From an uncultured bacterium (GTDB lineage Bacteria > Bacillota > Clostridia > Lachnospirales > Lachnospiraceae): DNA of 48,738 nucleotides. Within the stretch, counting starts at the first letter, position 1; each line of letters begins with the position of its first letter. Below the pieces are notes generated by a model. The model did no database searches and was not told the DNA's origin. It saw nothing but the letters and a program-made list of their open reading frames with translations. Position numbers and translations under genes: made by a program. Shown in pieces: positions 2,190 through 26,168 of the stretch. The DNA lies in the NCBI GenBank assembly GCA_947383005.1, contig CANDBT010000034.1:1-48738 (forward strand), given 5' to 3'.

Positions 2190-2226
2190 GATTTTACATC
2201 TAATTCAAAATATAGGAGGCCATCGC

Positions 2227-2575: not shown

Positions 2576-2609
2576 ATAGCATCCCGCCCTGAAAAAGTTG
2601 GATGCTATT
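2575..2609 (-). terminator. probable rho-independent terminator
   Basis: AATAGCATCC (2575-2584) pairs with 2600-2609. On the minus strand the stem is followed by TCTTTTTATG. It would end transcription coming from the decayed gene and nuclease gene at 2.7-4.1 kb. Confidence 0.5.
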
Positions 2610-2714
2610 CTTATAGTTATTCTTTACTGAGGGCAATCGGAGATTCAATTCCGATCACTTCTAAGTAGATTATATACTGGTACTGCTATAATCCAATTTA
2701 AATAAAGCTATGTT

Positions 2715-3100
2715 TCATTGCCCCTGATTCTCCTGTCCGTGCTGCTTCCTTGTATGAGGCTTGGGAACACGCTTATCCTTATCACACGCATTGGCAGCTT
2801 TATGATTTACAACTTCATATACAATCCTGGCTGATATCCTCTTTGGCAAGGTCTATATCATCAAGTCTGTAAGACCAATAGTATCCAGCGCCTGCATTCC
2901 GGGCTTTTCATCATATCATAGGACAGGGTATGAACCGGCATCCCTTCAAAAGGCAGGAGATTCCCTTCCCCGTCAAACTGTAGGGAAAGCTGTTTATAAA
3001 TAACAAGGACATCATGCATTTTAGAATCAAAATCCGAACCACGTTTCTCACAGCAGACTGTTTTCTGATAGGAAAACAATGTCCGCTTCTCTGCATTCAT
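2715..3100 (-). pseudogene. decayed gene of unknown function
   Basis: An ATG at 3100 follows the nuclease stop codon by two bases and opens a 79-residue frame ending LLVLQT. The coding pattern does not stop there: a second frame continues with YYWSYRLDDIDLAKEDI (about 2815-2885), and a third continues from about 2845 with ISARIVYEVVNHKAANACDK to a TGA at 2715-2717. Read together these look like one protein of about 125 residues broken by two indels. I do not recognise the family. The tight spacing implies it was translated with the nuclease gene. Confidence 0.4.
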
Positions 3101-3102
3101 AA

Positions 3103-4077
3103 TTATGCCAATACCGGATCCCCGCCCTTTATGATGGCATCTACTTCCTCCATGCTTTTCCCTGCCACGTCTGCTATCTGTTCTAATGAGTAACCCTTAT
3201 GATACATATTTAAAATAAATCTGACTTCTCCCTCTGCCCTTCCTTCTGCTCTTCCTTCTGCCCTTCCTTTTTCCCTGATTCCCTGTGATAAGTTGCACAT
3301 GACGTCCACTTCCTCTCTTATTTTATCATCTAATGGGATGCTGTACTCCGTTTCCAGAATTCCTAATTTTTCACCAACAGAAAGCTCCATTGACAATGTC
3401 GCGCTTAACAGGCGGTGCAGCTCATATTTATCATCATGTTCCGGAAGTTCGTCCGTTATTCCTATTATGACTATGTTTAACAAGTCAAGTCCGCCTTCCC
3501 ACTGGTGGGAGCCTAATATGTCATCCTTCGTCAAATGCACATGGGCCATGCTGTTCTCGTCCATGCCCATGCATACCCAAATGGAATATACGCGCCGAAT
3601 GTCATCATAATCCATCTTGACAAAATCCCTTTCCTTCTGCGACGAAATCATGCGGCTGACATAAAAAACCGCCCTGTTTAAGATACGGTAGCCTGTGGGT
3701 TCCCCCTTTTGCGCCTCAATATTTACAATCACCTGTGAGATTCCGTCTTTCATCCGCACGTAGAAAATAATGTCAAAACGGATCATTCCCTCGTTTATTT
3801 CTGTATTTTCCGTATTTAACCCAACAATCCGCTGTCCGTCTTTCTCTTTTGCCGCATTTGTCAATCCTGGCTCTAACGGAACCGTGCTGATGAAGGGATC
3901 TCCCTCAATATAAGATACAGACTCTTTTGGGTCCATGCCCAGAAATTCATCAATCGTTTTTACCAAAATATGCGCCAGAATCATTTTATTCCCTAACAGC
4001 CGCTTCGCCTTTTCATCATACTGCGCATCCGTATCCGCCGCATTTACCGCATTTTTTATTTCTGTATCCACATGCAT
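3103..4077 (-). CDS. Rpn/PD-(D/E)XK nuclease family transposase-like protein
   Basis: The 324-residue protein resembles the Rpn/PDDEXK_2 family, recombination-promoting nucleases common in gut Clostridia. Visible features are an N-terminal segment with a short helix (AHILVKTIDEFLG), the nuclease core with RFDIIFYVRM followed by VIVNIEAQKG (the D...ExQ-type active site), and a C-terminal part with three RAEG repeats from a 12-bp tandem repeat. It ends in a HTH-like segment (YSLEQIADVAGKSMEEV). I chose the ATG at 4077 because AAGGGGGT lies directly before it; an in-frame upstream ATG (4095) lacks such a site. The RAEG repeat number may vary between strains. Role in DNA recombination or defence is known only for distant relatives. 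Confidence 0.75.
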   Translation of the reverse strand: MHVDTEIKNAVNAADTDAQYDEKAKRLLGNKMILAHILVKTIDEFLGMDPKESVSYIEGDPFISTVPLEPGLTNAAKEKDGQRIVGLNTENTEINEGMIRFDIIFYVRMKDGISQVIVNIEAQKGEPTGYRILNRAVFYVSRMISSQKERDFVKMDYDDIRRVYSIWVCMGMDENSMAHVHLTKDDILGSHQWEGGLDLLNIVIIGITDELPEHDDKYELHRLLSATLSMELSVGEKLGILETEYSIPLDDKIREEVDVMCNLSQGIREKGRAEGRAEGRAEGEVRFILNMYHKGYSLEQIADVAGKSMEEVDAIIKGGDPVLA

Positions 4078-4241
4078 GACCCCCTTACCATACATCCGGC
4101 AAACGGAAAAGCTATTCCCGAAAAGTATATGGCCTTAAAATTATTATATCCTGAAACTGACGCTGAATCAACTTTTAAATTAAAAACTTTCTAGTACTGC
4201 TTGATTTTCAAGTGGCTCTTTTCATGTCACAACAAAAATAA

Positions 4242-4272
4242 GGCCAAGAACCTATTCTTCCGATTCTTGGCC
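4242..4272 (-). terminator. terminator downstream of the L,D-transpeptidase gene
   Basis: GGCCAAGAA (4242-4250) pairs perfectly with TTCTTGGCC (4264-4272). On the minus strand the stem is followed by TTATTTTTGTTG. It lies 75 bp past the stop codon of the transpeptidase gene. Confidence 0.75.
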
Positions 4273-4346
4273 AATTTAACGCCCATGCCCGCAAGTTACA
4301 CCATTTGGCTTTCTTTTAGTTTTTTACTTCAGCAGCGAAACTGCCT

Positions 4347-6275
4347 TCAGCCCGGCGCCCCCGGTTCAGAAACTACAGTGCCTTCCCCGCTGTTTTCCGG
4401 AACAGGAGCAGGGGCAGGCGGTTCCTCCGCAGGAGCCTGCGGTTCTGCCGGCTGCGGTTGATTTTGCGGTTCTGCCGGCTGCGGCTGGCCTTCCGGCTCT
4501 CCTGGCTGCGGTTGGCCTTCCGGCTCTGTCGGCCCTGCTGGCTCCGTATATCCAGGGCCAACCGGTTCCGTCTGAGTAGGCTCGGCAAAGGCCGGACCGC
4601 CCTCTTCGGGAAATTTTGTTTCCTCTGTCGGAGATTCCAGCTGGGGTTGCTGAGGATCGGCCGATGTTTCTCCTTCAGTTGCTCCTTCTTCCGGATTGGG
4701 TGCTACCGTAGGCACCGGTTCCGACGGAACCGGTGCGGCCGCCGGCACAGCCGGTGCGGCCGCCGCTTTGCCGGGAGAAGAAGTCTTTGCAGGCTCTGTT
4801 CCTTCTAAACGATAACACAAAACCGGATCTCCTGCGGTAATCTGCTCAAAAATCTTTTGAGCGGCTGTACGAGGCAGATTAATACAGCCATGGGAACCGT
4901 TAGTCTTATAAATCCTCCCTCCGAAAGCTCCCCGCCAACTGGCATCGTGAAGGCCAATACCACCGTTAAAAGGCATCCAATAAGACACCGGGCTGGCATA
5001 TCCGGGACCTCTCAAAACGGCATTGCGCTGCTTGTAGTTCAACGGATACGCCCCCGACGGAGTAGTAAATCCCCTGGCTTCGTTTCCCGAGACAAAGTCC
5101 GTTTCCACAACCAGAGAACCATTGACATAAAAATACAAGTGCTGTGCGGTCAGGTTTATCTCCACATACGTATTTCCGTAATCATTTTCCCCGCGGGAAG
5201 CCGCCGTCTGAGAATACACTGGCTCCCTTTCCTGGCTTATCCCGGAACGAATAATTTCGGACAGCGCAGCCGCCTCGGCGCTCTGGTTGATCTTCCAGCC
5301 ATAAGTACCTTTGGATATCGTTACCTCTTCGCCATTGGTCGTTTTAAATACTTTGGGCTTGCTTGCCGTATCATAAGTAGCTGCCAGCTGCGCCACATAT
5401 TCCGCTACCTTTTCTTCATCAAGAACCATGTTTCCCTCTTCGTCTTTGCTTATCCAGGTATGGATAATATCTCCGTTAAGCACTTCTTCCTGATCACCAA
5501 AATGGTAGTCTATGGTAACATTCGTGGAGGAATTCCACAACTCCGCTTCTGCAACCAGATCCGCGTCGTCCGCTGTCACCTGCGCATGCTCATATACATC
5601 CTCTTCTTCCAGGGAAATACTGCTTTTCAAGTTCAAAATACCGTCGGATACGGCTTTCAGCATTTTCTCCGAATCAATCCAGGTTCCCGGCTGATCAGGA
5701 ATAACCGTATATCCGATTCCTTCCTGATAATCGGACAAATACGCATCCACCGGAGCTTCCGTCTTGCTCCGGTCCATAGAATCCAACCCTCCTACCACGC
5801 TTTCCAGCCTGTCCTGGTCATAAATTACCATCGTTTCAATGGTATGTTCCTCATGGTCAAACAAATGAAGACCCCAGCGGAAAGGCTCCTGGCTGGCCAG
5901 AATATTTTCCAGTGAACCGTCATATTCAGGATGCAGGCCGATTTGCTCGCCGACAATCTGCTCCTGAGTCCCTCCCCTTCCTTCCAATGTCAGAGTATAT
6001 TCATCCATGCTGCTGTCAATCATGTCCTTTACTTCCGCCACGGTCTTACCCGAAACATCCAAACCGTTGATGATTGTATTAGGGAAAAATACCTCTTTAT
6101 ATTGTCCGCTTAAATATGTATACAACAGGCCGGCAATCACCACGATGCCTAAAAAGGCCACAGCCGTAATGACAGCAATTTTTTTCCCTTTTCCCGGGGC
6201 GCCGCCCTGATGGCTTTCGCCCCCTTGCCCTTGGTTTCCAGGGCTTTGTTTACTTTCTTTTTCTGTCTGCATCAT
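4347..6275 (-). CDS. L,D-transpeptidase (YkuD) with PG-binding domains and P/E-rich tail
   Basis: A membrane-anchored cell-wall enzyme of 642 residues, expected to form 3-3 peptidoglycan cross-links. After a short cytoplasmic N-terminus there is one membrane segment (IAVITAVAFLGIVVIAGLLY), then two peptidoglycan-binding (PF12229-type) regions. Next comes the YkuD catalytic domain, with GLHDA and SHGCINL; the catalytic Cys is about residue 464. The last 155 or so residues form a low-complexity tail rich in Pro, Glu, Gln and Ala, with repeats such as GQPQPGEPE and NQPQPAEPQ. The start at 6275 is preceded by GGGAGAGGGAG; an upstream in-frame ATG at 6308 is less likely. It is a single-gene unit with its own terminator. 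Confidence 0.9.
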   Translation of the reverse strand: MMQTEKESKQSPGNQGQGGESHQGGAPGKGKKIAVITAVAFLGIVVIAGLLYTYLSGQYKEVFFPNTIINGLDVSGKTVAEVKDMIDSSMDEYTLTLEGRGGTQEQIVGEQIGLHPEYDGSLENILASQEPFRWGLHLFDHEEHTIETMVIYDQDRLESVVGGLDSMDRSKTEAPVDAYLSDYQEGIGYTVIPDQPGTWIDSEKMLKAVSDGILNLKSSISLEEEDVYEHAQVTADDADLVAEAELWNSSTNVTIDYHFGDQEEVLNGDIIHTWISKDEEGNMVLDEEKVAEYVAQLAATYDTASKPKVFKTTNGEEVTISKGTYGWKINQSAEAAALSEIIRSGISQEREPVYSQTAASRGENDYGNTYVEINLTAQHLYFYVNGSLVVETDFVSGNEARGFTTPSGAYPLNYKQRNAVLRGPGYASPVSYWMPFNGGIGLHDASWRGAFGGRIYKTNGSHGCINLPRTAAQKIFEQITAGDPVLCYRLEGTEPAKTSSPGKAAAAPAVPAAAPVPSEPVPTVAPNPEEGATEGETSADPQQPQLESPTEETKFPEEGGPAFAEPTQTEPVGPGYTEPAGPTEPEGQPQPGEPEGQPQPAEPQNQPQPAEPQAPAEEPPAPAPVPENSGEGTVVSEPGAPG

Positions 6276-6631: not shown

Positions 6632-7555
6632 TCAGTCATAATCTTCCAGGAAATGGCATTTATTCCCCTTTTTCTTATAGGCAATTACCGTATCCAAATT
6701 CACGTTCTCCACGCTTTTGAAAATATTGCTTTCCACGAAAGGATTCGTTTCTTTTAATTCGGCAATCAGCCTTTTTATCTCCAAACGTTTGGACATCTCT
6801 CCCCTGTCCGGACGGTCTGCACCGGCAGCTTCGGTAAACCGGCATGCACACTGCAGAAAATGAAGATGGTTGTAATCCCGCCAATGCTTGATGTCTGACT
6901 CCCGAATCAAATACATGGGACGAATCAATTCCATCCCTTCAAAATTTGTACTGTGCAGTTTAGGCATCATCGTCTGTATCTGCCCGCCGTAAAGCATCCC
7001 CATAAGGATAGTTTCAATCACATCATCATAGTGATGACCCAAAGCAATTTTATTGCAACCGCGTTCCTTGGCCTGACGATAAAGATGGCCCCGGCGCATC
7101 CGTGCGCACAGATAGCACGGAGATTTTTCCACATCATAGACAGAGGCAAAAATATCCGACTCAAACACCGTTATGGGAATACGTAACAGCCGGGCATTGT
7201 ATTCAATCATTTGGCGGTTCGCCTCGTTGTATCCGGGGTCCATAACAAGAAACACCAGCTCAAAAGGGAACTTGTTATGACGTCTCAATTCCTGGAATAA
7301 TTTAGCCATCAACATGGAATCTTTTCCCCCGGAAATGCAGACGGCAATACGGTCATTTTCCTGTACCAGCTCATACTCGTTAATCGCCCGGGCAAACCGG
7401 GAAAACAGTTCCTTATGAAAACGTTTCCTCAGGCTTTTCTCCACATCTTCGGCACAAAATGCTGTCCCTTCTGAAGATAGTTTTTCTCCGAATAATTTTT
7501 CTCCAAATAATTCTTCTTCGTTTTGCCGAACGTTCTCTCTGTCCACTTCTTTCAT
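6632..7555 (-). CDS. TtcA-like PP-loop tRNA thiolation enzyme
   Basis: A PP-loop ATPase of the TtcA/TilS superfamily, which adenylates a tRNA base before sulfur transfer. The ATP-binding PP-loop is CISGGKDSM; a CxxC pair (CYLCARMRRG) and a second pair (QCACRF) follow, as in TtcA proteins that bind an Fe-S cluster. GHHYDDVIETILM is also typical. I place the start at the ATG at 7555, after AAAGGGATGGG; a TTG at 7591 extends the frame by 12 residues. The gene follows the Clp/FtsH fusion gene closely, so it is likely co-transcribed with the Ter locus. The acidic 30-residue N-terminus is not typical. Its substrate here (tRNA s2C or another nucleotide) cannot be decided from sequence. Confidence 0.8.
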   Translation of the reverse strand: MKEVDRENVRQNEEELFGEKLFGEKLSSEGTAFCAEDVEKSLRKRFHKELFSRFARAINEYELVQENDRIAVCISGGKDSMLMAKLFQELRRHNKFPFELVFLVMDPGYNEANRQMIEYNARLLRIPITVFESDIFASVYDVEKSPCYLCARMRRGHLYRQAKERGCNKIALGHHYDDVIETILMGMLYGGQIQTMMPKLHSTNFEGMELIRPMYLIRESDIKHWRDYNHLHFLQCACRFTEAAGADRPDRGEMSKRLEIKRLIAELKETNPFVESNIFKSVENVNLDTVIAYKKKGNKCHFLEDYD

Positions 7556-7595
7556 CCCATCCCTTTCAACCTCTGCTTTCCCTTTGCCCAAACCA

Positions 7596-10500
7596 TTACC
7601 ATAGCTCTTTTATCTGTTCCCCTGTCAGCTTATTCTCTTTTAAAAGCGCTTCCGCCAGGCGGTCGGACAAATGACGGTTCTCCCGAATCAACCCTACTGT
7701 TTTTCTCATCTCCCGGTCAAGAATTTGATTGATTTTCTTTTTGACCTCGGCAGTCTCCCCATCCTTTCCGTCCCGGACGCCAAGCCCAAATTCCTCGTCC
7801 ATGCCATAAGAGCAAATCATTGCCTGTGCAATTTTGGTCGCCTGTGCCAAATCACCGGAAGCGCCCGTAGAAAGGCCGCCTTCTTCACCGTAATAAACAA
7901 TCTCTGCCGCTCTCCCTCCCAAAGATATGCGGATTCGGTTCAGCAAATCCTCTTTGGTAGAAATATGGCCCTCCTCCTGCGGAGAGTGCTCCATATATCC
8001 CCCGTGATCACCCCGGGCCACAATCGTCAGATAAGCCGGCTCCCGGCCGCATAGATGACATATCAATCCATGCCCTGACTCATGGCGTGCCACCCGTTCC
8101 AGATATTCGTAACCCCATGTTTTCTGACTTCCGTGTTTAGTGGTTTCATATGCCTCATCCAAAAGCTCATCATCCAAAATCGTCTGCCCTTTCATCGCCA
8201 AACGATTGGCCTGTTCCACAACGGAAGTTAAAGCTGACGGGCTCATGCCGACGGACCGGGAAGCCAGGCGTTTGAGCATCTCATGGGAAACGACATGAAT
8301 CTTATTCCTGCTCACCAGAAGCCGAAGAAGCTGTTCCCGCTCCTCCTGATTGGGTAAGTCAACAGAAATTTTGCAGCTAAAGCGCCGGGACAACGCCGGA
8401 TCGATAACGCCCATTCCCCCTTGGCCGTCCTCTATATCAAAATTTGTCGCTGCCAACACAAATATCGGCCTTTGCGGATCCTGGACAAAACCATCCATCT
8501 CTGCCAAAAGCGCATTTAAAGCCATTTCTTCCCCGTGGCCGGAATTTATCTGCCCCCGTTTCCTTCCTATCGCATCAATCTCGTCAATAAAAATCACAGC
8601 CGGAGCATATTTCCTGGCTCTTCTGAACAGATCCCGCACAGCCTCCGGGCCGCTTCCCTGATATTTTGTCACGAAAGATGTTGCGACAAAAGGAATAAAA
8701 GCCACATCGCTTTCGCCGGCCATAGCCCTTGCCAACATGGTTTTTCCCGTACCGGGAGGGCCATAAAGGAGAACCCCTTTGGGCGGCTGCATCCCCTGGA
8801 CGCTGAACGGACGGGGATTTTTCAGATATTGAATAAAAAACCGCAGTTCCTCTTTTGCCTGCCGGGCGCCGACTACATCGGCAAAACGCACCGACGGCTT
8901 CTCCACATCATCCAATACACTGCTGCTGTCATCGGCGGATACTGCCCTTCTGAGAGTAAAATCCCTGAGCCGGATCATCACCTCCGATTGGTCGGACGAC
9001 ATTTTCGGCGCCGTTTCAAAGGAAAGGACTTTTCTCTCGGAAGCAAGACGGGAAGCTACTCCCTGGATACGCAATTCCCTGCACAGAGAAGAAAGCATAT
9101 CCTCAAACACAGAAAAATCATCCCCTGGCGCCGTCAGCTTTCCTCTCGCTCCTGCCCGGACAAAACTCATTTCCAGCTCCAAATCAATAGGCAATGCTTC
9201 CGTCTCCAAAAGATATATTGGCAGATTCGGCAGACGTTCATGAAGGCTTTTAAATAATAAACTGCCGTCATGAATCGCAGCAGCGGCCATCGGCGCAAAA
9301 TCAAAAGCCCCCTGCCGGTTTACCATAATGGTTCCTTCCCCTTGAGCCATATAGGATTTCTTTATCAAATTAACGGGATTCTTCTCCACACTTTTCTCGG
9401 CAATATCAATCAGGGCAAGACGGATATCCTTCTCCCCGGCAATCATCAGCGCTTCCTGCACGCTCTGAGTGGAATAAATCTCATATTCCGCAAGTTCTTC
9501 GGCGCATTTCCGGGCAAATCCCGGCGTCCCGTAAAGTAAAATTTCCGGCCGCTTTGACTGTTCAAAAAGCGTCCGTACCTGATCCGAAAAGCTCTCGGTC
9601 TGCACGACAAAACGGATCTTTCTAATCTTGGACAAAGCCGAAGAAAAATTTTCCTCTCCCCACAAACGGCAAATCTTAAAAACCTCATTTTTAAAGAACA
9701 GTTCGCTTTGGGCACGCAGTGTCCTGGCATCTGCCTGTCCTCCCTCCTGAAGCAGCAGGGAAACCGGAACAAAATCATCCACCTGAACATGAATGCCATA
9801 CTGTTTTTCAAACAAGCTGCCCATACGTGCAAATTCATTCCGGCTGATTTTTTCCAAGTGATGCGTCTGCAGGTGATTAAACAGCAGCGGCCATCCTGTA
9901 GCCATACGGCTGGTAATTGTTTCTGGGAAAAACGGCCTGCCTGTACGGGGATTAATTTCCGTTTCCAATGCACTGAGTACCGCTGCTCTCGATACAGCAA
10001 CTCCACCGGGTCCTATATTTCTCTCGTATAAAAAGCGGCCTGCATTCGTGGTAAAAATAATAATGGTGTCTTTAAAAGAAATATCTTCCTCCAGAAACCG
10101 GTCAAAAAGCCTTCCCCCATCCAATATCTGCAGAAACAAATTAATGGTATTGGCATGAGCTTTTTCAATCTCGTCAAAAAGAAGAATGCTGTGGGAATGA
10201 GCTTTGACAAAACCGGTAAGAGTCCCTCTCTTTGCCCCCTGGTAGCTCTTTTCAAAGCCTACCAGGCCCATGTAGGACTGATGGTCTGCATAGCTGGACA
10301 TATCAAAACGCCTGAACGGCATATCAAGACCCTCCGCCGCCTGTTCTGCCAAAAAAGTTTTTCCCACACCCGGAGGCCCGGCAAAAACAAAAACCGCCCT
10401 GGGCCGACGCCGCTTTTCGTCGCTGGCCGCCAGAAGCTCCGCGGCAAACATCCCCTCAGCGAAGCCATGGACTACATGATCTTGTCCGTACACTACGGAC

Positions 10501-11018
10501 AGAAGCCTGGCTCTCATTTTGCGGATACGGGATGTCAGAACCGGAAGGAAATCAATACTCATTTCCTCCACTTCCCCGCCGTCCTCCGGCTCTTCCCGTT
10601 TCAATGAGCAGACCTGCAGCATCAAATCTGAAGGGTGTTTGATAATCACTTCCAGCATGTCGGCCGCCCACAACATATCCTTTTTCTCTGCTTTGGCCTT
10701 TTTTTCCGCCAGTTTTGTACATTGTTCCAACGCAAACTCATCCGCCGCCACGCCCCCCGCAATCATATACCGCAAATGTCCGCGGGTTCTTGTGGTATCG
10801 ATATGGTTTTCCTCAAACTTTTTTTTCACCTGACAGATGTCCTCGTCGATGACGGCCAGAACATTTTCCGGCGCGGAAATAAAATCGGCCGCATGAATTT
10901 CCGCCAGTTTTAACAAAGCAAGAAAGATATGTTCAATGCCCAAAGCATCCGAATGGGCGGCTTTCAGCTCGGCATTGGCACGCAACATAATGAATTTCAT
11001 TGAGGGAGAATGATCCAT
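7596..11018 (-). CDS. ClpA/C-like AAA+ fused to FtsH-like AAA+ M41 metalloprotease
   Basis: A 1140-residue predicted soluble protease with two different AAA+ motors. Residues 1 to about 145 resemble Clp N-terminal domains (LGIEHIFLALLK). A Clp-type AAA+ module follows, with Walker A GPPGVGKT at about 214-221, Walker B ILLFDEIEKAH and TTNAG. A middle region of about 300 residues has a possible degenerate receiver-like fold (ILLYGTPGF, IRLALIDIAEK). Then comes an FtsH-type AAA module: FADVVGA, Walker A GPPGTGKT at about 753-760, VIFIDEIDAIGRKR and DPALSRRF. The M41 peptidase has zinc motif HESGH from residue 979 and STGASGDLAQAT supplying the third ligand. No membrane helix precedes the FtsH part, unlike true FtsH. 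The start was chosen at 11018 because of AGGAGGAAAT; the frame stays open 98 codons upstream into the HAD gene. It probably degrades or remodels Ter-related substrates (inference). Confidence 0.85.
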   Translation of the reverse strand: MDHSPSMKFIMLRANAELKAAHSDALGIEHIFLALLKLAEIHAADFISAPENVLAVIDEDICQVKKKFEENHIDTTRTRGHLRYMIAGGVAADEFALEQCTKLAEKKAKAEKKDMLWAADMLEVIIKHPSDLMLQVCSLKREEPEDGGEVEEMSIDFLPVLTSRIRKMRARLLSVVYGQDHVVHGFAEGMFAAELLAASDEKRRRPRAVFVFAGPPGVGKTFLAEQAAEGLDMPFRRFDMSSYADHQSYMGLVGFEKSYQGAKRGTLTGFVKAHSHSILLFDEIEKAHANTINLFLQILDGGRLFDRFLEEDISFKDTIIIFTTNAGRFLYERNIGPGGVAVSRAAVLSALETEINPRTGRPFFPETITSRMATGWPLLFNHLQTHHLEKISRNEFARMGSLFEKQYGIHVQVDDFVPVSLLLQEGGQADARTLRAQSELFFKNEVFKICRLWGEENFSSALSKIRKIRFVVQTESFSDQVRTLFEQSKRPEILLYGTPGFARKCAEELAEYEIYSTQSVQEALMIAGEKDIRLALIDIAEKSVEKNPVNLIKKSYMAQGEGTIMVNRQGAFDFAPMAAAAIHDGSLLFKSLHERLPNLPIYLLETEALPIDLELEMSFVRAGARGKLTAPGDDFSVFEDMLSSLCRELRIQGVASRLASERKVLSFETAPKMSSDQSEVMIRLRDFTLRRAVSADDSSSVLDDVEKPSVRFADVVGARQAKEELRFFIQYLKNPRPFSVQGMQPPKGVLLYGPPGTGKTMLARAMAGESDVAFIPFVATSFVTKYQGSGPEAVRDLFRRARKYAPAVIFIDEIDAIGRKRGQINSGHGEEMALNALLAEMDGFVQDPQRPIFVLAATNFDIEDGQGGMGVIDPALSRRFSCKISVDLPNQEEREQLLRLLVSRNKIHVVSHEMLKRLASRSVGMSPSALTSVVEQANRLAMKGQTILDDELLDEAYETTKHGSQKTWGYEYLERVARHESGHGLICHLCGREPAYLTIVARGDHGGYMEHSPQEEGHISTKEDLLNRIRISLGGRAAEIVYYGEEGGLSTGASGDLAQATKIAQAMICSYGMDEEFGLGVRDGKDGETAEVKKKINQILDREMRKTVGLIRENRHLSDRLAEALLKENKLTGEQIKELW

Positions 11019-11068
11019 GATTATTTCCTCCTGGTAACATGGAAGTTTATTATAAATGCCGGCTTTTT

Positions 11069-11102
11069 GCAACAGTTCAGGCAGATATCCTCTTGCCTGC
11101 GG
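11069..11102. repeat. dispersed 33-bp motif, copy
   Basis: On the minus strand this reads as GCAGGCAAGAGGATATC followed by TGCCTGAACTGTTGC. It aligns with copies at 6448-6490, 18749-18787 and 46129-46163. It lies in the 157-bp gap between the HAD gene and the protease gene, which holds no other clear feature. Confidence 0.5.
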
Positions 11103-11175
11103 CGATGGGCGGCCTGATTCGCTGCCATTACGTGCATCCCCATGCCAGGCAGCGTGTTGCTTGACATGGGAGTGA

Positions 11176-12054
11176 TCAATAACCTGAAGCGTTACATTTT
11201 TGCCAGCAGACAGCCGTTTGCAAAAGGAATTCGGCAAAATTCCGACCTCCTGGACAAACTGCCAGTTCTTTTTTCGAAGAAAAGACAAATTTTTCATCTT
11301 GTCTGACTTCATATATCATTTTTCTCAGACTATCGGGAATAATGGCTAAGTCCGCTTCCAACAACATGGGAATATCCATAATGCTGTCTCCGGCGCTGGC
11401 AACAAAAGAAACTCCCGTCCTTTGACGGAGCCGGAGTAACGCCTGCCCTTTATTCATTTGGGGCGGGAAAAAATAAATTTTCTTTCCCGAGATAACCGAA
11501 GCCAGGGAAATATCTTTCCGATGCACCGGAAAAGTGGCGGATGGCTCCTTTTCCCGGCAGCAAGCAAAGCGATAATCACTCTGTTTTGCGAAATCGCAGT
11601 TTGATGCGGCGAATACTTCCCCTTCCCGACAGCAAGCATAAAGCAGCATCTCATCTACGATTCGAACAGACCGATATGTATTTTGTTTTTCCAGCAAATG
11701 ATGCAACTGGTAAAGTTCCTCCTGAAAAGGTCTGGCAATCTCAAGAGACTGGGCCTGCCATTCCCTGTCTGTCTCCCCGTTGTGTAAAAGCAGCCCTCCA
11801 TTAGTTGTCACCGCATACTCCGGCTGGCAGCCCCCGGGCCACTGAATACGCCGGTACTGATCCGCGGACCGGGAAGTAACGGGAATCAGGCAAATATTTT
11901 CCGTCAACTTTCTGAGAAGCCGAATGGTCTTTGGCGTCATGTAGCCTTGTCTTTTTCCGTTTATCCATTCCACGCAAATATCTCCCGGCTGCCGATACCG
12001 ATAAGAATAAAGCAAGGTATTGTCCAAATCACAGGCAAGGATGATCTTTTCCAT
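11176..12054 (-). CDS. HAD-superfamily phosphatase of the Ter locus
   Basis: A 292-residue HAD hydrolase. Motif I is ACDLDNTLL near the N-terminus, motif II lies in IPVTSRS, and motif IV is SAGDSIMDIPML near residue 238. The middle cap resembles type IIB (Cof-like) phosphatases. It starts one base after the preceding gene's stop codon, so the two are translationally linked. HAD phosphatases accompany the PRTase genes in Ter-associated operons, where they are predicted to dephosphorylate a nucleotide-like product. The true substrate is unknown. Confidence 0.8.
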   Translation of the reverse strand: MEKIILACDLDNTLLYSYRYRQPGDICVEWINGKRQGYMTPKTIRLLRKLTENICLIPVTSRSADQYRRIQWPGGCQPEYAVTTNGGLLLHNGETDREWQAQSLEIARPFQEELYQLHHLLEKQNTYRSVRIVDEMLLYACCREGEVFAASNCDFAKQSDYRFACCREKEPSATFPVHRKDISLASVISGKKIYFFPPQMNKGQALLRLRQRTGVSFVASAGDSIMDIPMLLEADLAIIPDSLRKMIYEVRQDEKFVFSSKKELAVCPGGRNFAEFLLQTAVCWQKCNASGY

Positions 12055-12055
12055 A

Positions 12056-13162
12056 TCAATTATCCGCCATCGAGCGGATTAGGCCGCAGGCCCGGTAACG
12101 TTTTAAAGGATATTCCTCCACGTTCACGCCTTTTTCCTCCGCCAATTGATATAAATGCCCTAAATGCTCCTGATCTTCCAAACTGTGCACCAAAATTTTC
12201 CAGGGAACACGCCGCAAGAGCACCCGTGTCGCCTCGCCGATACTGGGTTTTACCAAATTGATATCGGCAATACCAAATTGTCCGGCAATCTGTTCTACTT
12301 CCCTTAAGCCGCTGCCCGGCTCAAAGCTGCAGTTTTCTTCCGCTTCCAAACACTTGGGCAGGTCCTCTTTATTTTTCTCCTGCGAATGCATTCCGCTCAT
12401 AGGAAATTGCCGTTCTATCTCATGGATGAAAGAATAAGTTACATCCTTCCGAGCCAAATTCCGATAAAACGCCGCTCCGTGAAAATCCGTCGGCCCAATA
12501 ATATCCTCCCGATAAAAAGTACGGCTCAAGAGACCGGATACCGTACAATTCAAGCAGGAACTGGCAATCAGAAAATCGTCGTAAGTCCCTCTCTTCGCTG
12601 CCACGCAAGCTGGATCAGACAGCACAGCCAGTCCCGGATCAACCCCGGGATAATCCTCCATAGCTTCCCTCACCTGCCGCTGAATAGCGCCTTTTCCTGT
12701 CCATCCGTCAACAAACTGGAGACTTTCCGGCACATGTCTGGCCAGCATATAAGCCATGGCATTTTTATCAATACCTCTTCCGCGAATAATGGAAACCGTA
12801 TAATGGCTTACCGATACCTGATACTTTTTTTGCATATAACGTTTAATTAAAATCCCTATCGGCGTTCCCGCACGGGCCAGGGACACTAAAACGGTACGCT
12901 TTCCCTTATCCTGCCAAATCCGATCGCCTACCTGCGCTACCGCCCGGGCTGTCATCCCGGCATAGAGAGACAAAGCCCGCTCATACGCCTGCAAATAAGC
13001 ATCGGAAGGCTCATATTCCAAGGGCAGCAATTCCGAATAATGAACACCCTTCTGAATCAACGCTTCTCTCTCGCCGGCCGCCATCGGTTTTACCATGCCG
13101 GAAATATCCTTGAGAAGAACCGTTACATCTGCCGGGCTGTAAGAACTAAACATGGTTTTCAA
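12056..13162 (-). CDS. PRTase-like protein with C-terminal PELOTA-type domain (StiP family)
   Basis: A 368-residue protein resembling the family annotated as cysteine protease StiP or PRTase_1 plus PELOTA RNA-binding domain, a regular partner in Ter gene clusters. The N-terminal two thirds contain VLVSLARAGTPIGI and the PRPP-loop-like FVDGWTGKGAI; the last 75 or so residues look like an L7Ae/PELOTA fold (ADINLVKPSIGEATRVLL). It overlaps the start of the co-directional TRSP/PRTase gene's end (13146-13162), indicating translational coupling. It is predicted to act in formation of a modified nucleoside or RNA-linked metabolite; this is a family-level prediction, not shown here. Confidence 0.75.
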   Translation of the reverse strand: MKTMFSSYSPADVTVLLKDISGMVKPMAAGEREALIQKGVHYSELLPLEYEPSDAYLQAYERALSLYAGMTARAVAQVGDRIWQDKGKRTVLVSLARAGTPIGILIKRYMQKKYQVSVSHYTVSIIRGRGIDKNAMAYMLARHVPESLQFVDGWTGKGAIQRQVREAMEDYPGVDPGLAVLSDPACVAAKRGTYDDFLIASSCLNCTVSGLLSRTFYREDIIGPTDFHGAAFYRNLARKDVTYSFIHEIERQFPMSGMHSQEKNKEDLPKCLEAEENCSFEPGSGLREVEQIAGQFGIADINLVKPSIGEATRVLLRRVPWKILVHSLEDQEHLGHLYQLAEEKGVNVEEYPLKRYRACGLIRSMADN

Positions 13163-14306
13163 CCTCCCCGGCAGAACTTTTCCCCTCCCAATACAGCAAA
13201 TTTTTGCAGCCGTAATGGTTAAGTGCTTCTGCCAAATTTTTCAGTCCCTGGGGATTTTTCTCCCCGCTGTCCGATACGATAATCACTTGGCCGTATTGGT
13301 CAAGATTGTAAAGATAGGTAATCCTTTCCTCCTCATAAAGGCTGCCAAGCTTGGCTCCGTTTTGGACGGGATAACCCTTCTGGCTGCATATGCCAATAGG
13401 GCTGCGGGTCGTAGCATAGCTGATTACCGGAGAAGCCAGACCTTGTTTCTCTATAGCCCTCCCCAAAATAAGTGCCGGATACATGCACTCTTCCGTTCCT
13501 AAAACCAGTACCTTTTCGTTTTCGGCAAACCGATGCCCTATGGCCGAACATATCTGTGCGGCCGCTTCCTCGCATTTTCGGGTATATTCCCTGGCTAGAA
13601 GCCCTGTCCGGGGATTTGGCAAGCCACCGGGAATCCGCCGTCTTTCTACAGCCGCCGTCCCGGCATACTGACGGAAATCCTCTGCCTCTTCTATCTCATA
13701 GTCTGCTACTCTTTTCGTATAGTCTTCATCCGAAAGCTTCAACAGGCACTCACTGACAATCCCTGCCTGCGCAAAACGGGACAAGTTTTCCTCCGAAAGA
13801 CGGTTGATCAGCGATGCTGCAACCATTGTTTTCCCCTGAGCCTGGGGGAACTGCCGACGAAGCTGATTGACCATATTAATTACCGTCTTTCCCGTGGACA
13901 GCTCGTCATCAATAATAATCACCTGAGGCGTCCGTTCCAGCCATTGGGACAAAAAATCGCCGCATAAATTCTGATCCGTGGCATGGCTGTGCTCTTCCAA
14001 AAAATTCACCCATAAACTTACCTGCTCGATTTTCTCCCTTGTAGTATGGATATAAACACAATCCTCCCCAAAACAATCGGCCACGGCTGCACCGATAGCC
14101 GTGGCTGTCTCCGCAAATCCGATAACAAGCCTGGCCGCCGGATACCTGGCAGCCAGCTTTTCTCCCAGGCATCTCATCATTTCCAACGCTTCTGACGCTC
14201 TTGAGGGCACATGCTTTCCCTGTATGGGATTCACCAGTGAATAAAGCCTTTTGGTATTATTATACCGCTTTGCCAACCGCAAAATTTGTTCTACCGTATA
14301 TTGCAT
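13146..14306 (-). CDS. phosphoribosyltransferase with TRSP domain
   Basis: A 386-residue protein with an orotate-PRTase-like domain in the first 220 residues, whose PRPP-binding motif is VIIIDDELSTGKT. The C-terminal TRSP domain contains the motif for which it is named (YATTRSPIGI) and ends with VIIVSDSGEKNPQGL. Ter-associated PRTase_2/TRSP proteins have this layout. It heads a tightly packed trio with the PELOTA-type gene and the HAD gene. In described Ter operons this trio usually comes with an ATP-grasp enzyme and a citrate-lyase-like aldolase; neither is present in this window. Confidence 0.8.
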   Translation of the reverse strand: MQYTVEQILRLAKRYNNTKRLYSLVNPIQGKHVPSRASEALEMMRCLGEKLAARYPAARLVIGFAETATAIGAAVADCFGEDCVYIHTTREKIEQVSLWVNFLEEHSHATDQNLCGDFLSQWLERTPQVIIIDDELSTGKTVINMVNQLRRQFPQAQGKTMVAASLINRLSEENLSRFAQAGIVSECLLKLSDEDYTKRVADYEIEEAEDFRQYAGTAAVERRRIPGGLPNPRTGLLAREYTRKCEEAAAQICSAIGHRFAENEKVLVLGTEECMYPALILGRAIEKQGLASPVISYATTRSPIGICSQKGYPVQNGAKLGSLYEEERITYLYNLDQYGQVIIVSDSGEKNPQGLKNLAEALNHYGCKNLLYWEGKSSAGEVENHV

Positions 14307-14347: not shown

Positions 14348-15571
14348 TCACTCTACTTCTACGCCGTAACTTTCACATAACTGTTTTAATCCGCTATGAT
14401 AGCCGGCGCCCACAAAATTGAATTTCCATTCGCCCTTATAACGGTATATTTCCAGAGCAACCACAGTCTTTTCCCTGTCCAAATCCGAAAAAACAAACCG
14501 ATAGCATTCCTTTTCCCCATCAAAAACGCGGAGCATCGGCTCATTGGCCAGCGAAAAATTCTGATCAGAGTCATCGCCATACAGGGAAAAGCAAACAGCA
14601 ATTTTATTTACCCAGGCATCTGTTTTTTTCAAATCCACAAAAACCATCGGGCGGACGCTGTCGCTGTTCCCCCAAACATCCCCCTTTTCGGATCGCGGAT
14701 TCCCAAAAAAAATCAAATCCGAATCACTGTGAGTCCTGCCGTCTGCCCCCAGCAGAAAAACATAACTGTCGATCTCCAAGGACTGGCTGGCACTTTGATG
14801 ATCATATACCAGTTTTATAATTTTATTCTGCAAATTCCCCACCGGCATACGCTGGCCACGCCGGATATGTTCTACTTGCACATCGTCTGTAATTGGGGCG
14901 ACAATCTCCAGCGGCGGCTCCACCGGCATCGTCTGACTCACCGGACAGACAACCGGAGCTACCACCGGCTGTTCATGATGCTCAGGCGCCCCTGCCTGAG
15001 CCTTGCCGCTCACATAAATCCGCCGGGTAACACCAGTAATCACCAAAATTTCTCCGTAAAGAATGGTGTTTTCTTTCATACCGGATGTTTTCAAAATAAT
15101 TTTGTTTTTCCCGCAAACCAGCCGATCCGGCATCAATACCGTATCTTTCATTGTACAGCGCAAGGCCGCAGGAGCCGGAGCATCGATTTCCAAAGCAAAA
15201 GTATTTTCCACCCCTGCTGCAAATTTTCCCAAAGCAATCACTGGCGGAAGCTCCCATGATGCAGCTTCATGGGCAAAGCCTTCCAGACGGCCGCTGACTT
15301 CCACCCCGGACAAAACCGTATGGGCATAACGAGTCCTGACCGCTATGGCCGTCTCTTCGTTCTCCGGCCTGCCGGTCACTTCAATCCGGAGATTCTTTAT
15401 CGTAACAGGTTCTGCCTCCACAATCAACACAGGGCCGGTTTTCGCCCACAACGTAGACTGGCCTCCATCCACTACACATGGGCGGTTTATGGTCAGCGGG
15501 CCTTCATACTCTCCCGGCGTCATTTGGAAATCACCGGCACGGCTGTTAAATTCCTCTTGTATGCTGCTCAT
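14348..15571 (-). CDS. TerD-domain protein with beta-helix-like N-terminal region
   Basis: A 407-residue protein. The N-terminal 200 or so residues look like a short beta-helix or carbohydrate-type repeat (GPLTINRPCVVDGG, VTIKNLRIEV), followed by a Pro-rich linker (HHEQPVVAPVVCPV). The C-terminal 170 residues are a TerD domain: LEIDSYVFLLGADGR, DLIFFGNP, GEWKFNFVGAGYHSGL. The Ca2+-binding acidic residues are fewer than in the TerD at 18828. The ATG at 15571 follows GGTGGAGA; the open frame continues upstream 48 codons into the repeat region, which I exclude. TerD fused to such an N-terminal region is unusual. Confidence 0.8.
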   Translation of the reverse strand: MSSIQEEFNSRAGDFQMTPGEYEGPLTINRPCVVDGGQSTLWAKTGPVLIVEAEPVTIKNLRIEVTGRPENEETAIAVRTRYAHTVLSGVEVSGRLEGFAHEAASWELPPVIALGKFAAGVENTFALEIDAPAPAALRCTMKDTVLMPDRLVCGKNKIILKTSGMKENTILYGEILVITGVTRRIYVSGKAQAGAPEHHEQPVVAPVVCPVSQTMPVEPPLEIVAPITDDVQVEHIRRGQRMPVGNLQNKIIKLVYDHQSASQSLEIDSYVFLLGADGRTHSDSDLIFFGNPRSEKGDVWGNSDSVRPMVFVDLKKTDAWVNKIAVCFSLYGDDSDQNFSLANEPMLRVFDGEKECYRFVFSDLDREKTVVALEIYRYKGEWKFNFVGAGYHSGLKQLCESYGVEVE

Positions 15572-15597
15572 TCTCCACCTCACTATTATAAAATCAT

Positions 15598-22195: not shown

Positions 22196-23683
22196 CTATT
22201 TACCGCAGACGACCTCCATGAGAAGACCTTTCTCCTCCGCAGACGCCTGAAACACGGCTCCGTCTTTAAGCTGTACTGCCCGGCCCGCAGGGACCAGGTT
22301 GCCGCCCGGGGAAACCATCCCCTGAATATTATGATTAACCATCAGCCATTGTCCCTGATATTTGCACACGTAAGCCATCATGCTTCGGTCTGCTTTTTCG
22401 TCAGGAAAACAGTTGGCAAACACATGCCATTTGAACAGCGGCATATTGTGGTACACATTAACCACGCCAGCCTCAATCCACTGGCCGCTTCTGCCCCTGA
22501 CCTGGCTTTTCAGCCGGATTTGCACCAGACTATCCTTACTGAGCCGATGGCCGCAAAACGGGCATACGGGCTTTCTCAGATCATGAAGGACAAACCAACC
22601 GGCCGCACAGTCAGGATTTTCACAAGGATGGAGCAAATCCCAGGTCTTTACCAGCGCTTTTTCCCATTCCAACGCCGTAGGGCGTTCGTCAGGATTGTGA
22701 AGCCCATCGACAAAAGCCCGCAAAAACAATTTTTCCAGCAAAGGCCCATGATCTTTGATGGTCACTCCTAAACTTTGCGGCCGATTGCTGCGGTCCTGCG
22801 GATGTTCAATAAACAACGCCTTGGGCCCCATGGCCAAATAATCGTCCTCATCCGGGTCCTGGGAATGGATCTTGGGGCCCCGGAGAGGATGACGAAGAAG
22901 CAAATATTCATAGATCAGCACAGCAAGAGCATGGAGATCCGTATAAGCACAAGGAAGCCTCCGGCCTTTGTCACCGAAAGGCCGGGACAAGGTTTCCAAA
23001 ACTTCCGGGGCAATATAGCCGTTGGTACCGATAACCTCGGGAGGATAAACACCGGGCACCACCAGCGTATCGATATCAATCACCACACAGCTTCCCGACT
23101 TCGGATCAACCAGCACATTATTGCAGGACAGATCCGAGTGGGCCAATCCCGCCTGATGCATCCTCCGTATCGAGCGGGCCAGGGAGATAGACATCTGAAC
23201 CATAGAACGAAAATCCCCCAGTTCCTGCTCCCTCATATATTTTCTCAGCTTGGCCGAGGTAAACCATTTGCTCTTTTTATCTTTCCCCTTCAGTTGGGAA
23301 TTGAGTTCCGGCACCACCGAGGCATTATCCGAAAAAAAATAATTGGCCGGATAAGCCGGGCAGACAATACCGAACTCCGGCCGGGTGACAATCGCTTTCG
23401 GCCAACAGAACTTATCGGCAAAATAGGCCGCCATCTTATCATTGTTCCCTTTAGCGCCGCCGTCTCTTTCGGAAAGAGTCGGATTGTACTTACCGATAAT
23501 GGCCTCCAGCCGCTTTCTCACATTCGGATCCCTCCCGTTCTCCGGCCGGTTAAAAAACTGAACCACATAGGATTTATCCGGGGAAAAATACGTGTATTTC
23601 ATACCGCCCCTGGGAGGGTTGTCCTTGACTACATATGGCAGCCTGGTTCCGTCTGCCAGCGTAGCTTCTTTAATGTTTGCCAT
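22196..23683 (-). CDS. Ser/Thr kinase-like protein with C-terminal zinc knuckle
   Basis: A 495-residue protein of the Ter-associated kinase type. The N-lobe is unusual, with no clear glycine loop. The catalytic loop is HSDLSCNNVL (about residue 182) and the metal motif is VIDIDTL in place of DFG. The activation end GTNGYIAPEVL and HPDE-type C-lobe motifs follow. The C-terminal 140 residues have a Cys pattern (CENPDCAAGW...CPFCG) typical of zinc ribbons, followed by a beta-rich domain. It starts 12 bp after the PP2C gene. Catalysis is probable but the DID motif and missing glycine loop leave doubt. Confidence 0.8.
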   Translation of the reverse strand: MANIKEATLADGTRLPYVVKDNPPRGGMKYTYFSPDKSYVVQFFNRPENGRDPNVRKRLEAIIGKYNPTLSERDGGAKGNNDKMAAYFADKFCWPKAIVTRPEFGIVCPAYPANYFFSDNASVVPELNSQLKGKDKKSKWFTSAKLRKYMREQELGDFRSMVQMSISLARSIRRMHQAGLAHSDLSCNNVLVDPKSGSCVVIDIDTLVVPGVYPPEVIGTNGYIAPEVLETLSRPFGDKGRRLPCAYTDLHALAVLIYEYLLLRHPLRGPKIHSQDPDEDDYLAMGPKALFIEHPQDRSNRPQSLGVTIKDHGPLLEKLFLRAFVDGLHNPDERPTALEWEKALVKTWDLLHPCENPDCAAGWFVLHDLRKPVCPFCGHRLSKDSLVQIRLKSQVRGRSGQWIEAGVVNVYHNMPLFKWHVFANCFPDEKADRSMMAYVCKYQGQWLMVNHNIQGMVSPGGNLVPAGRAVQLKDGAVFQASAEEKGLLMEVVCGK

Positions 23684-23695: not shown

Positions 23696-25432
23696 TTACA
23701 GCCGCACAAGCACCAGCGTACGGTCATCAAAGGAACCGCGCTCAACATAATTATCCAGCCAGATTTTCAACCGCTCGCTGGGATCGGCGATTTGATTTTC
23801 TTCCTCTTCTTTCAGTTCAAGCCTGGCCAGTTCCAGAATCCAGGGAGCGTTCCAAATATCCTCCAGGGTAAATCCGACCGACTGGCAAACCCGCTTTGTA
23901 TATTGAACCGGTACTTTCACCTGCTGATCGTTGACCCAGGGATAAGCCAGTGGGTCCGGAAGCTTTTTCAGTATCTTCAACTGCCGGGGAACGGGGAAAG
24001 CTTCTTTAGCCCCTGTCTTTTTCCCTTCGATTATCCCGTTAATAACCAGATCATAATACAACCGGTAAAGTTCTTTTTCGTTAGGGAAATAATCATCCGC
24101 CACTCCATCGCTCATGACCATAACCAAATCTGCCTCGCTTCGGGATATCTTGGTCCTTGTCTGAAGCGTATGGATATTTTTCATTTGCGGCGAAGTCAAA
24201 AAATCCGTTTCGCCGGAAAACTCACCGCTGTCTGCCACCCCCATAAGCTTTAATGAAGAGGCAAACTCACCGCGGGTGTTGAGCAAGGCAATCATCCCGT
24301 CGCCCACCTGGCAGCTTATGGCCAAGTGCTCTTTGGCGCCTTTCCCCACCGGAACCAACACGGCAACCAACAGCGTCCCTGAAAAATCCTTAAATTCCGG
24401 CTCCCGTTTCAGCACTGCCTCATAGGCAGGGTCAGCAGCCCGGGAATAGTAAGCCGCTTCCACGGACTCTGCCGCTTTTATCACCGACTGCTGAACAATC
24501 CCGGCCAGGACCCCGCATGCTTCCATACATTTGGGATCGGACAATTCCCGTCCCAATGCCTCCTCTATCTGAGGCTTCTTTGCATACTCACGTTTAAAAG
24601 CCGTCGCCAGATAGCCCACCGCCGCTTTGCAGGATTCCCTCGCGCCTATGCGGGAAAATTTTTTGGAACCTGCCCCGTCGGATACGGCGACAAAAATAAT
24701 TTCTCCAAAATTTGCCGTCTCATACCAGTCGTCACAATTCGTCCCCTCATGCTTATGCTTTTTCCCTCTCACACGGGCAGCAATGACATCGCCCCCGGGA
24801 AACCGGGCGAACCGATGGACATACTCCGGCATCGCTTCCGGCTCATCATTGGGCACAGGCATATATTTCCATAAACCGGCCGTATGGCCGGTAACCGCCT
24901 CGTCGGCCAAAGGTTTAAGCGAAGCCGGCGCATGGCCGGCAGCCGCCCCCTCGGCCTGAGGTTTAAGCGAAGCCGGCGCATGGCCGGTAGCCGCCCCTTT
25001 GGTCTGAGGTTCGGGCGAAGCCGACGCATGGCCGACGGGCGCCCCTTTGGTCTGAGGTCCGGGCGAAGCCGGCGCATGGCCGGCAGCCGCCCCCTCGGCC
25101 TGAGGTTTAAGTGAAGCCGGTGCATGGCCGGCGGGCGCCGGTTCGGACTGCTCATCCGGAATAGGTTTCTCCAAACGTTTCGGCCCGGGTTCTCCGGTTT
25201 TATCCGGCAGCGGCTCTTCCTGCTGTTTTGACCCGCGATTTTCCCCCTGGCCGCCTTTCGGCTTATCGTATGCCTCCACGCCGACGGACTCACCAAAATG
25301 ATTCATCACATACTCTTTTATCTGAATGTCCATATCGCCGTCGGCACTTTCCGCAGCTTTTGTCCCTTCATCCCTGGCTTCTGTTTCATTCCTGACTTCT
25401 GGTGTCTTGGGAGTTTCGTTTGCTTCTGCCAT
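23696..25432 (-). CDS. PP2C-family phosphatase with repeat-rich N-terminus
   Basis: A 578-residue protein. The first 190 residues are low-complexity, with five 16-residue repeats (GHAPASLKPQAEGAAA-like) from a 48-bp tandem repeat. The rest is a PP2C_2 domain: GTNCDDWYETA, VAVSDGAGSKKFSRIGA, CQVGDGMIALL and MVMSDGVADDYF supply the metal-binding aspartates. PP2C enzymes of Ter loci are expected to oppose the neighbouring kinase. The gene has a strong site (AAGGAGGATGAG) before its ATG and lies 12 bp upstream of the kinase gene. Confidence 0.85.
   Translation of the reverse strand: MAEANETPKTPEVRNETEARDEGTKAAESADGDMDIQIKEYVMNHFGESVGVEAYDKPKGGQGENRGSKQQEEPLPDKTGEPGPKRLEKPIPDEQSEPAPAGHAPASLKPQAEGAAAGHAPASPGPQTKGAPVGHASASPEPQTKGAATGHAPASLKPQAEGAAAGHAPASLKPLADEAVTGHTAGLWKYMPVPNDEPEAMPEYVHRFARFPGGDVIAARVRGKKHKHEGTNCDDWYETANFGEIIFVAVSDGAGSKKFSRIGARESCKAAVGYLATAFKREYAKKPQIEEALGRELSDPKCMEACGVLAGIVQQSVIKAAESVEAAYYSRAADPAYEAVLKREPEFKDFSGTLLVAVLVPVGKGAKEHLAISCQVGDGMIALLNTRGEFASSLKLMGVADSGEFSGETDFLTSPQMKNIHTLQTRTKISRSEADLVMVMSDGVADDYFPNEKELYRLYYDLVINGIIEGKKTGAKEAFPVPRQLKILKKLPDPLAYPWVNDQQVKVPVQYTKRVCQSVGFTLEDIWNAPWILELARLELKEEEENQIADPSERLKIWLDNYVERGSFDDRTLVLVRL
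24884..25130. repeat. 48-bp coding minisatellite in the PP2C gene
   Basis: Five tandem units of 48 bp encode GHAPASLKPQAEGAAA and near variants (GHAPASPGPQTKGAPV, GHASASPEPQTKGAAT). The alternating LKPQAEG and EPQTKG variants suggest unit shuffling. The linker is probably disordered and its copy number likely varies. Confidence 0.75.
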
Positions 25433-25514: not shown

Positions 25515-26168
25515 TCAGGGAACGATAACAAACCCCTGTGGTGGCGGCGGAAGCTCCACGGCTACTCCCGGTTTGCCGTCAAGACTTTTGGAAGACATCT
25601 TGATCGAACCGGAAACCCAGGCAAAGAACTGGGCCATATCTCCGGCTGAGAGCGTGTTCATCATCAATACGCTCTCCGTAATCTTCTTCAGATAGGAGGT
25701 ATCGGCGGAAGACCCTGCCGCACAGGCAATGATATTGGCTGTCTTCACTCCTTTAATCTTCTGGACAGCCTGGTTAAACGTTTCGATGTCGGTAGGCGAA
25801 CCGTCGGTCAGGATAAACACCAACGGCCTCCAGTCCCCTTTCTGCGACTCAGTCGATTTACGCACTTCACTGCCAATGCAGTCAATCAGTACATTCAGCG
25901 CTTCGCCAAGAGCCGTCGCGCCGCCTGCATGGAGTTCCGGCTCCTTAAACTGCATCAGCTCCGTAAGCGGAGTAATCTGTCTGGCCTTGCTGTCAAAGGC
26001 TATCACCGACAAATATGCCGTCTCCAATGCCTGGGGATCGCCCCTCAATTCGGAGAGCAGCGCCTTCACTCCCTGCCGGACTGCTTCTATCGGCTCCCCC
26101 ATCATTGAACCAGAACAGTCCAGCAGCAAATATACTGGTAACCTACGGGAAAAATCATTCATGGCCAA
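25515..26168 (-). CDS. terY: TerY-like VWA-domain protein
   Basis: A 217-residue protein with one von Willebrand A domain. The metal-ion site has DCSGSM near residue 18, the Thr in AGGATALGEAL and the Asp in LTDGSPTD, so the MIDAS is complete. The C-terminus ends in a short Pro-rich tail. TerY proteins scaffold the kinase/phosphatase pair in Ter systems. It is the promoter-proximal gene, with TAAAGGAGG before its ATG and a promoter at 26208-26236. Confidence 0.85.
   Translation of the reverse strand: MAMNDFSRRLPVYLLLDCSGSMMGEPIEAVRQGVKALLSELRGDPQALETAYLSVIAFDSKARQITPLTELMQFKEPELHAGGATALGEALNVLIDCIGSEVRKSTESQKGDWRPLVFILTDGSPTDIETFNQAVQKIKGVKTANIIACAAGSSADTSYLKKITESVLMMNTLSAGDMAQFFAWVSGSIKMSSKSLDGKPGVAVELPPPPQGFVIVP

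Follow-up and report, generated by a model that had tools for sequence, protein, structure and literature searches.

The window analysed here is the whole 48,738-nucleotide (nt) stretch of contig CANDBT010000034.1 (assembly GCA_947383005.1). Its minus strand encodes a 1140-residue fusion protein that joins a Clp-like N-domain, a Clp-type AAA+ module, a receiver-like domain, an FtsH-type AAA+ module, and an M41 zinc peptidase in a single chain (Table 1). The longest frame, 7596–11312, is open for 1238 codons. Translation from the ATG at 11018, which yields the same interval as a first-pass annotation of this DNA, is favored because AGGAGG lies 8 nt upstream, because the preceding HAD gene ends at 11176, and because the equivalent codon is the earliest possible start of the frame in nine of 14 relative loci. 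The longer start at 11312 was rejected, as it would overlap the HAD gene.

A single scan of 84,980 species genomes, by a method limited to close relatives, yielded 14 relatives (loci L020–L033) with the same domain order and 49%–66% identity (48%–64% in the best segment). Their assemblies are labelled Lachnospiraceae, Clostridiales or Clostridia, Christensenella, Deltaproteobacteria, Opitutaceae, and Kiritimatiellaeota. Together with Pfam, these relatives bear out the first-pass annotation's reading of one 1140-residue chain with the order Clp_N–AAA–AAA–M41, albeit with a divergent N-domain. When the Walker sites were checked by alignment, Walker A, Walker B, sensor 1, and the arginine fingers (371 in the first module, 878 and 879 in the second) proved to be kept in all 15 members (the 14 relatives and the window protein), as were Tyr259 and a tyrosine or tryptophan at position 786. 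The zinc protease site, read at first pass as HESGH, is equally well preserved: HEXXH and Asp1056, the candidate third zinc ligand by analogy with FtsH, are kept in every one of the 14 members that reach the site, L028 ending at a contig end. Apart from that contig-end case, the relatives' frames are intact. The ratios of nonsynonymous to synonymous substitution rates (dN/dS) in five pairs were 0.097, 0.038, 0.170, 0.059, and 0.173, with dS above 2 in two of them; judging from these ratios, the gene is under purifying selection. A sequencing error merging two genes, the possibility raised at first pass, was looked for and is excluded by the 14 relatives and by purifying selection.

A profile of the N-domain retrieved the N-domain of ClpC from the PDB at an E value of 5.6e-4. 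Of the 31 matches with E no higher than 10, 28 carry Clp names, one is a 'probable ATP-dependent protease', and two are unrelated, all those after the first lying at E 0.12–1.8. Pfam Clp_N is matched below threshold in three of the 15 members (best E 0.0063). On this profile evidence, the N-domain is a putative, divergent Clp N-domain. The module that follows matches Pfam AAA_2 (E 5.5e-31), is the only AAA_2 module in the protein, and finds its best matches in the D2 modules of ClpE, ClpA, and ClpC. The description of this region as a Clp-type AAA+ with intact Walker motifs stands, but the predicted motor is one D2-type module without a D1. A replacement of the pore-loop tyrosine by Leu252 was considered and rejected, since the ClpA alignment places Tyr259 at this position. 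Clp unfoldases normally partner with ClpP. The docking tripeptide IGF/IGL, sought by eye in the aligned loop that presumably bears it in Clp proteins, is present in none of the 15 members.

Between the two motors lies a region that had been noted at first pass and left unnamed; it is present as described and models as a receiver fold. Residues 476–705, modelled with 15 sequences (model m2c11b6c38e9e), adopt a (βα)5 fold with a predicted local distance difference test score (pLDDT) of 78.8 and a low-confidence insert after β3. In a Foldseek search of the PDB, the best 50 of 115 rows at E ≤ 0.001 were response regulators or receivers, judged in part by title; among the matches listed, E values started at 1e-5, template modelling scores by target reached 0.80, and at least six entries were chains of construct 6oec. 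Pfam Response_reg is matched in six of the 15 members (best E 6.9e-4), and a profile of the middle region found a response regulator in the PDB at E 0.012. Related genomes gave weak, partial matches to the receiver-region profile, mostly in open reading frames (ORFs) of about 230–280 residues. The positions of the phosphorylation pocket, presumed here to be those of CheY (an acidic pair, an aspartate, and a lysine), are only partly occupied. Asp538 occupies the phospho-acceptor position and does not vary among the 15 members. No acidic pair after β1 is consistent across the 15 aligned members, and the lysine expected before the invariant proline after β5 is absent from all of them, the residue there being A, E, R, V, or G. 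We read the modelled domain as a non-canonical receiver, in which the CheY fold and the acceptor aspartate are kept and the rest of the pocket is lost.

The C-terminal half is matched by Pfam AAA (E 1.4e-46) and Peptidase_M41 (E 1.3e-30; 107.1 bits versus a cut-off of 29.9), and the NCBIfam FtsH_fam equivalog scores 337.6 bits, below its cut-off of 600. The structural matches listed by VIA-align cover mainly residues 695–1140. FtsH is normally membrane bound. The first-pass annotation had seen no membrane helix in the fusion protein, and hydropathy agrees: the largest Kyte-Doolittle mean over any 19 residues is 1.49 for the window protein and 1.10–1.47 among the 14 relatives, compared to 2.88 in one ordinary FtsH of the same genome, and by this measure none of the 15 members has an N-terminal membrane anchor. 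In a tree of 35 AAA–M41 parts, in which long branches were flagged and from which the incomplete L028 was left out, a branch with 100/100 support separates 19 fusion proteins from 16 ordinary FtsH proteins.

The protein family is rare. The receiver-region profile gave clear matches in three of 397 genomes from the window's bacterial family (G000, G411, and G334), after exclusion of 23 weaker ones (ORFs of 132–868 residues) from the 26 genomes found at E 0.001, and, at 1e-5, in three of 398 genomes of the phylum. G334 was counted by a partial match in a 1163-residue ORF, its domain core being borne out separately. These counts are lower bounds, because G036 escaped the family search. Across the window's own genome and 60 relatives, a whole-length single match occurred in G000 only, and G036 was matched in three pieces of one frame. 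None of 2219 matching plasmid records and none of 142 phage records covers 80% of the part from the first AAA+ module to the receiver. G411 and G334 share the core of the protein and have different N-terminal regions. The G036 relative (L034, 8142–12965; 1608 residues) comprises Cauli_VI, a Clp-type module, a receiver-like region, two FtsH-type modules, and M41, the Cauli_VI part being an RNase H1 N-terminal domain. At that locus, an RNase H gene directly after the gene and a small ORF before it both carry the same Cauli_VI domain. A distant 961-residue relative, G799 (L059, 8573–11458), has lost both ATPase sites and kept an M41 HEAGH motif.

In the window, the gene lies behind a Ter set comprising TerD, PRTase_2–TRSP, StiP–PELOTA, and HAD genes, with VWA, PP2C, and kinase genes farther upstream on the same strand. 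PRTase–TRSP, StiP, and HAD genes precede the fusion gene in three of the 15 members (the window, L020, and L028), and L020 additionally has ATPgrasp_Ter and C-C_Bond_Lyase genes. The examined flanks of the other 12 relatives contain no Ter gene match, the sole exception being 135 bases in L026 that match a dubious 91-residue ORF of the window. StiP scores above its cut-off in 30 of the 397 family genomes, and the fusion gene occurs at none of the 29 other StiP loci, within stretches of about 10–19 kb, some of them ended by contig ends. The window and L020 group together in the tree (97/99). The tie to a Ter operon, treated at first pass as the setting of the protease, is thus real at the window but not general, and from these two counts a minority of Ter loci include the fusion.

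Several further genes accompany the Ter loci. In the window, a TerD domain follows a region weakly matching NosD (14348–15715; NCBIfam 27.4 bits, cut-off 300), an AIM24 protein is encoded among the TerD genes (17060–17743; AIM24 also occurs in two of the 29 other StiP loci), and a TtcA-like PP-loop protein lies directly downstream of the protease (6632–7591; 193.9 bits, below the TtcA cut-off of 272), with no match in L020–L033. In L028, positions 1705–4820 upstream of the Ter genes hold an EspC-domain protein (Pfam, 1.5e-5) together with small ORFs of WXG100 type and one resembling ubiquitin, these two kinds being recognized by eye; the set suggests a type VII secretion neighborhood.

Kinase genes occur at nine of the 14 relative loci, eight identified by Pfam (L021, L022, L023, L025, L026, L027, L032, and L033) and the ninth, at L024 (12543–13817), by a profile of those kinases. 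Four loci (L022, L023, L025, and L032) have both FHA-kinase and PP2C genes, and WD40 or TPR fusions are found at several. In the window's own genome, the kinase background is 20 matches in 4.99 Mb, or about one per 250 kb. These kinase, PP2C, and FHA neighbors suggest phospho-control of the protein. Separately, the Opitutaceae/Kiritimatiellaeota loci L029–L031 have in common a neighbor family, c3, of which the two L031 members match nothing in Pfam, and L030 and L031 both carry an Hsp70-like gene and a metallophosphatase gene.

Table 1. Features of the fusion gene, its product, and neighboring genes in the window (residue numbers refer to the 1140-residue protein)
Feature	Position	Strand	Basis
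Clp N-domain / Clp-D2 AAA+ / receiver-like / FtsH AAA+ / M41 protein, 1140 residues	7596..11018	-	ORF, Pfam, relatives
Ribosome-binding site AGGAGG, 8 nt before ATG	11027..11032	-	sequence
N-domain, residues 1-136, all-helical in model, divergent Clp_N-like	10611..11018	-	profiles, model
AAA+ module 1, residues about 157-466, Clp D2 type (AAA_2)	9621..10550	-	Pfam, alignment
Module 1 Walker A GPPGVGKT, residues 214-221	10356..10379	-	alignment
Module 1 other sites: Walker B LLFDE 279-283, pore-loop Tyr259, Arg371		-	alignment
Receiver-like (CheY-fold) domain, residues 491-660, low-confidence insert about 545-582	9039..9548	-	model, profiles
Beta-hairpin, residues 663-691, linking receiver-like domain to module 2	8946..9032	-	model
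AAA+ module 2, FtsH type, residues about 705-963	8130..8906	-	Pfam, structural matches
Module 2 Walker A GPPGTGKT, residues 753-760	8739..8762	-	alignment
Peptidase_M41 domain, residues about 970-1140	7599..8111	-	Pfam, structural matches
Zinc motif HESGH, residues 979-983	8070..8084	-	alignment
Asp1056, candidate third zinc ligand	7851..7853	-	alignment
HAD-type phosphatase, adjoining the protease gene, likewise in L020 and L028	11176..12054	-	Pfam
StiP-PELOTA protein, Ter biosynthetic module	12056..13162	-	Pfam
PRTase_2-TRSP protein, Ter biosynthetic module	13146..14306	-	Pfam
Kinase gene, putative role in control	22196..23683	-	Pfam
PP2C gene, putative role in control	23696..25432	-	Pfam
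VWA gene, putative role in control	25515..26168	-	

Each part of the fusion protein has counterparts in known systems. It resembles ClpA, ClpC, and ClpE, which act with ClpP, in its putative Clp_N-like domain and in a D2-type AAA+ module with Walker, pore-tyrosine, sensor, and arginine positions; in contrast to them, it has one Clp module, no ClpP-docking tripeptide, and a zinc protease on its own chain. With FtsH and the i-AAA and m-AAA proteases it shares an FtsH-type AAA+ fused to M41, with HEXXH and the later aspartate, whereas it lacks the membrane anchor of FtsH, has an extra Clp motor and a receiver-like domain in front, and stands apart in the tree. Ter-dependent systems, reportedly described by Anantharaman in 2012, are said to include the parts seen in the window (PRTase–TRSP, StiP–PELOTA, HAD, TerD, and VWA–PP2C–kinase) and in L020 (ATPgrasp_Ter and C-C_Bond_Lyase), but the protease is absent from the examined stretch of all 29 other StiP loci. 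According to PMC7159879, the FtsH ternary systems of MoxR–vWA conflict systems have two FtsH-type AAA+ domains on one chain, the first of them dead, and include vWA, ClpN, and beta-propeller parts. Two AAA+ modules per chain, one of them an active FtsH type, are a common trait; the fusion differs in that its first module is of Clp type and has its sites intact. The 27 window proteins scanned include no MoxR gene. A precedent for a receiver domain controlling an AAA+ protease is RssB, which PMC7226468 presents as a receiver-containing adaptor of ClpXP that is phosphorylated on Asp58 and has an effector domain with a PP2C-like fold. In contrast to this separate adaptor, the receiver of the fusion is built in and its pocket positions are lost. 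A Clp–FtsH fusion is named in no title or abstract start among the literature matches listed, although an earlier mention may exist. We rate the parts as known and their combination as apparently new among AAA+ proteases.

Based on the conserved domain order and the intact sites, a simple model would suggest a soluble machine whose motors work in series. The fusion is probably a single-chain AAA+ metalloprotease of the cytosol that works independently of ClpP, with two motors in series and a control element of receiver fold. The N-domain would recruit a substrate or adaptor, which the Clp-D2-type ring and the FtsH-type ring would then pull and unfold one after the other. The receiver-fold domain may serve as the spacer joining both rings, and the unfolded substrate would be fed into the M41 zinc-protease ring and cut there. 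The receiver-fold domain may in addition link the machine to a partner, acting as a non-canonical control element. At most Clostridia loci, control would likely come from the Ser/Thr kinase genes, some of them with PP2C and FHA; in the window, it would come from a different kinase–PP2C–VWA set and the Ter module. The self-contained soluble unfoldase–protease imagined at first pass is thus favored as the simplest reading of the conserved anatomy, a case argued from sequence and models. It is an even call whether the proteins form a new class of cytosolic AAA+ protease, in which Clp D2 and FtsH motors thread substrates into an M41 chamber, a pseudo-receiver serves as the control point for Ser/Thr phospho-signaling, and the N-terminal recognition domain is exchanged across the wider family, where even the motor count changes (G036 has three AAA+ modules).

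Several observations weigh against this model. The window protein itself matches neither Clp_N nor Response_reg in Pfam. The full-length model, by which ring stacking would be judged, is poor (pLDDT 68.4; predicted template modelling score, pTM, 0.35). The sample is small and consists partly of close relatives, with short flanks at several loci, and the loss of both ATPase sites in G799 means that threading driven by ATP does not hold for the whole of the wider family. The kinase profile has no match at five of the 14 loci (L020, L028, L029, L030, and L031), and the kinase background rests on one genome. The kinase and PP2C profiles, which detect close kin only, miss the window's own kinase and PP2C, both of which Pfam detects; the window's kinase–PP2C–VWA set is therefore of another kind, and a shared phospho-control is an analogy. 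Finally, we infer hexamer formation, threading through both rings, proteolysis, phospho-control, and the substrates.

Alternatively, the protein could be a remodelling machine in which M41 is structural or self-acting, as in FtsHi, and the motors move or disassemble partners such as the kinase–WD40 proteins. The structural matches listed include Ycf2–FtsHi and Orf2971–FtsHi motor complexes, and the neighbors bear WD40, TPR, and FHA scaffolds. FtsHi, however, is protease-dead, the opposite of what is seen here, where all 14 members that reach the site keep HEXXH and the later aspartate and even the ATPase-degenerate G799 keeps its zinc motif, which makes pure remodelling distinctly unlikely. 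An effector role in a biological conflict, with kinase/PP2C/FHA or Ter signaling activating the protease against essential proteins of host or invader, would suit the patchy occurrence (three of 397 family and three of 398 phylum genomes, both lower bounds) and the variable neighbors, and a TerD-dependent anti-phage system is mentioned in PMC3710099. On the other hand, the PADLOC matches of the nine proteins scanned (IetA, PD-T4-6, and others) are generic AAA+ or kinase cross-hits, and these labels were rejected as evidence of defense; nor does any plasmid or phage record reach the coverage given above. This role is unlikely.

A dedicated component of the Ter operon, turning over TerD, StiP, or the biosynthetic enzymes, would explain why the gene sits directly behind PRTase–TRSP, StiP, and HAD in the window, L020, and L028 and why the first two of these group in the tree. 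It accords poorly with the 12 of 15 members that have no Ter match in their examined flanks and with the 29 StiP loci devoid of the fusion, and is accordingly quite improbable. That the gene is an assembly chimera or is decaying may be suspected from the 136 contigs of the window assembly and from the likewise metagenomic assemblies of the relatives, but 14 relatives in different assemblies, with frames intact apart from the contig-end case and with low dN/dS, make this exceedingly improbable.

The soluble ATP-dependent proteases of bacteria are usually counted as Clp, Lon, HslUV, and the proteasome, with FtsH as the membrane-bound one. If the proposed serial protease is confirmed, this cytosolic M41 enzyme, headed by a Clp motor and holding a receiver fold within its chain, would represent another type, and it would show how stacked motors of different kinds can provide unfolding power. 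More generally, the system makes it possible to test directly whether regulated proteolysis is an endpoint of eukaryote-like Ser/Thr kinase signaling in Clostridia.

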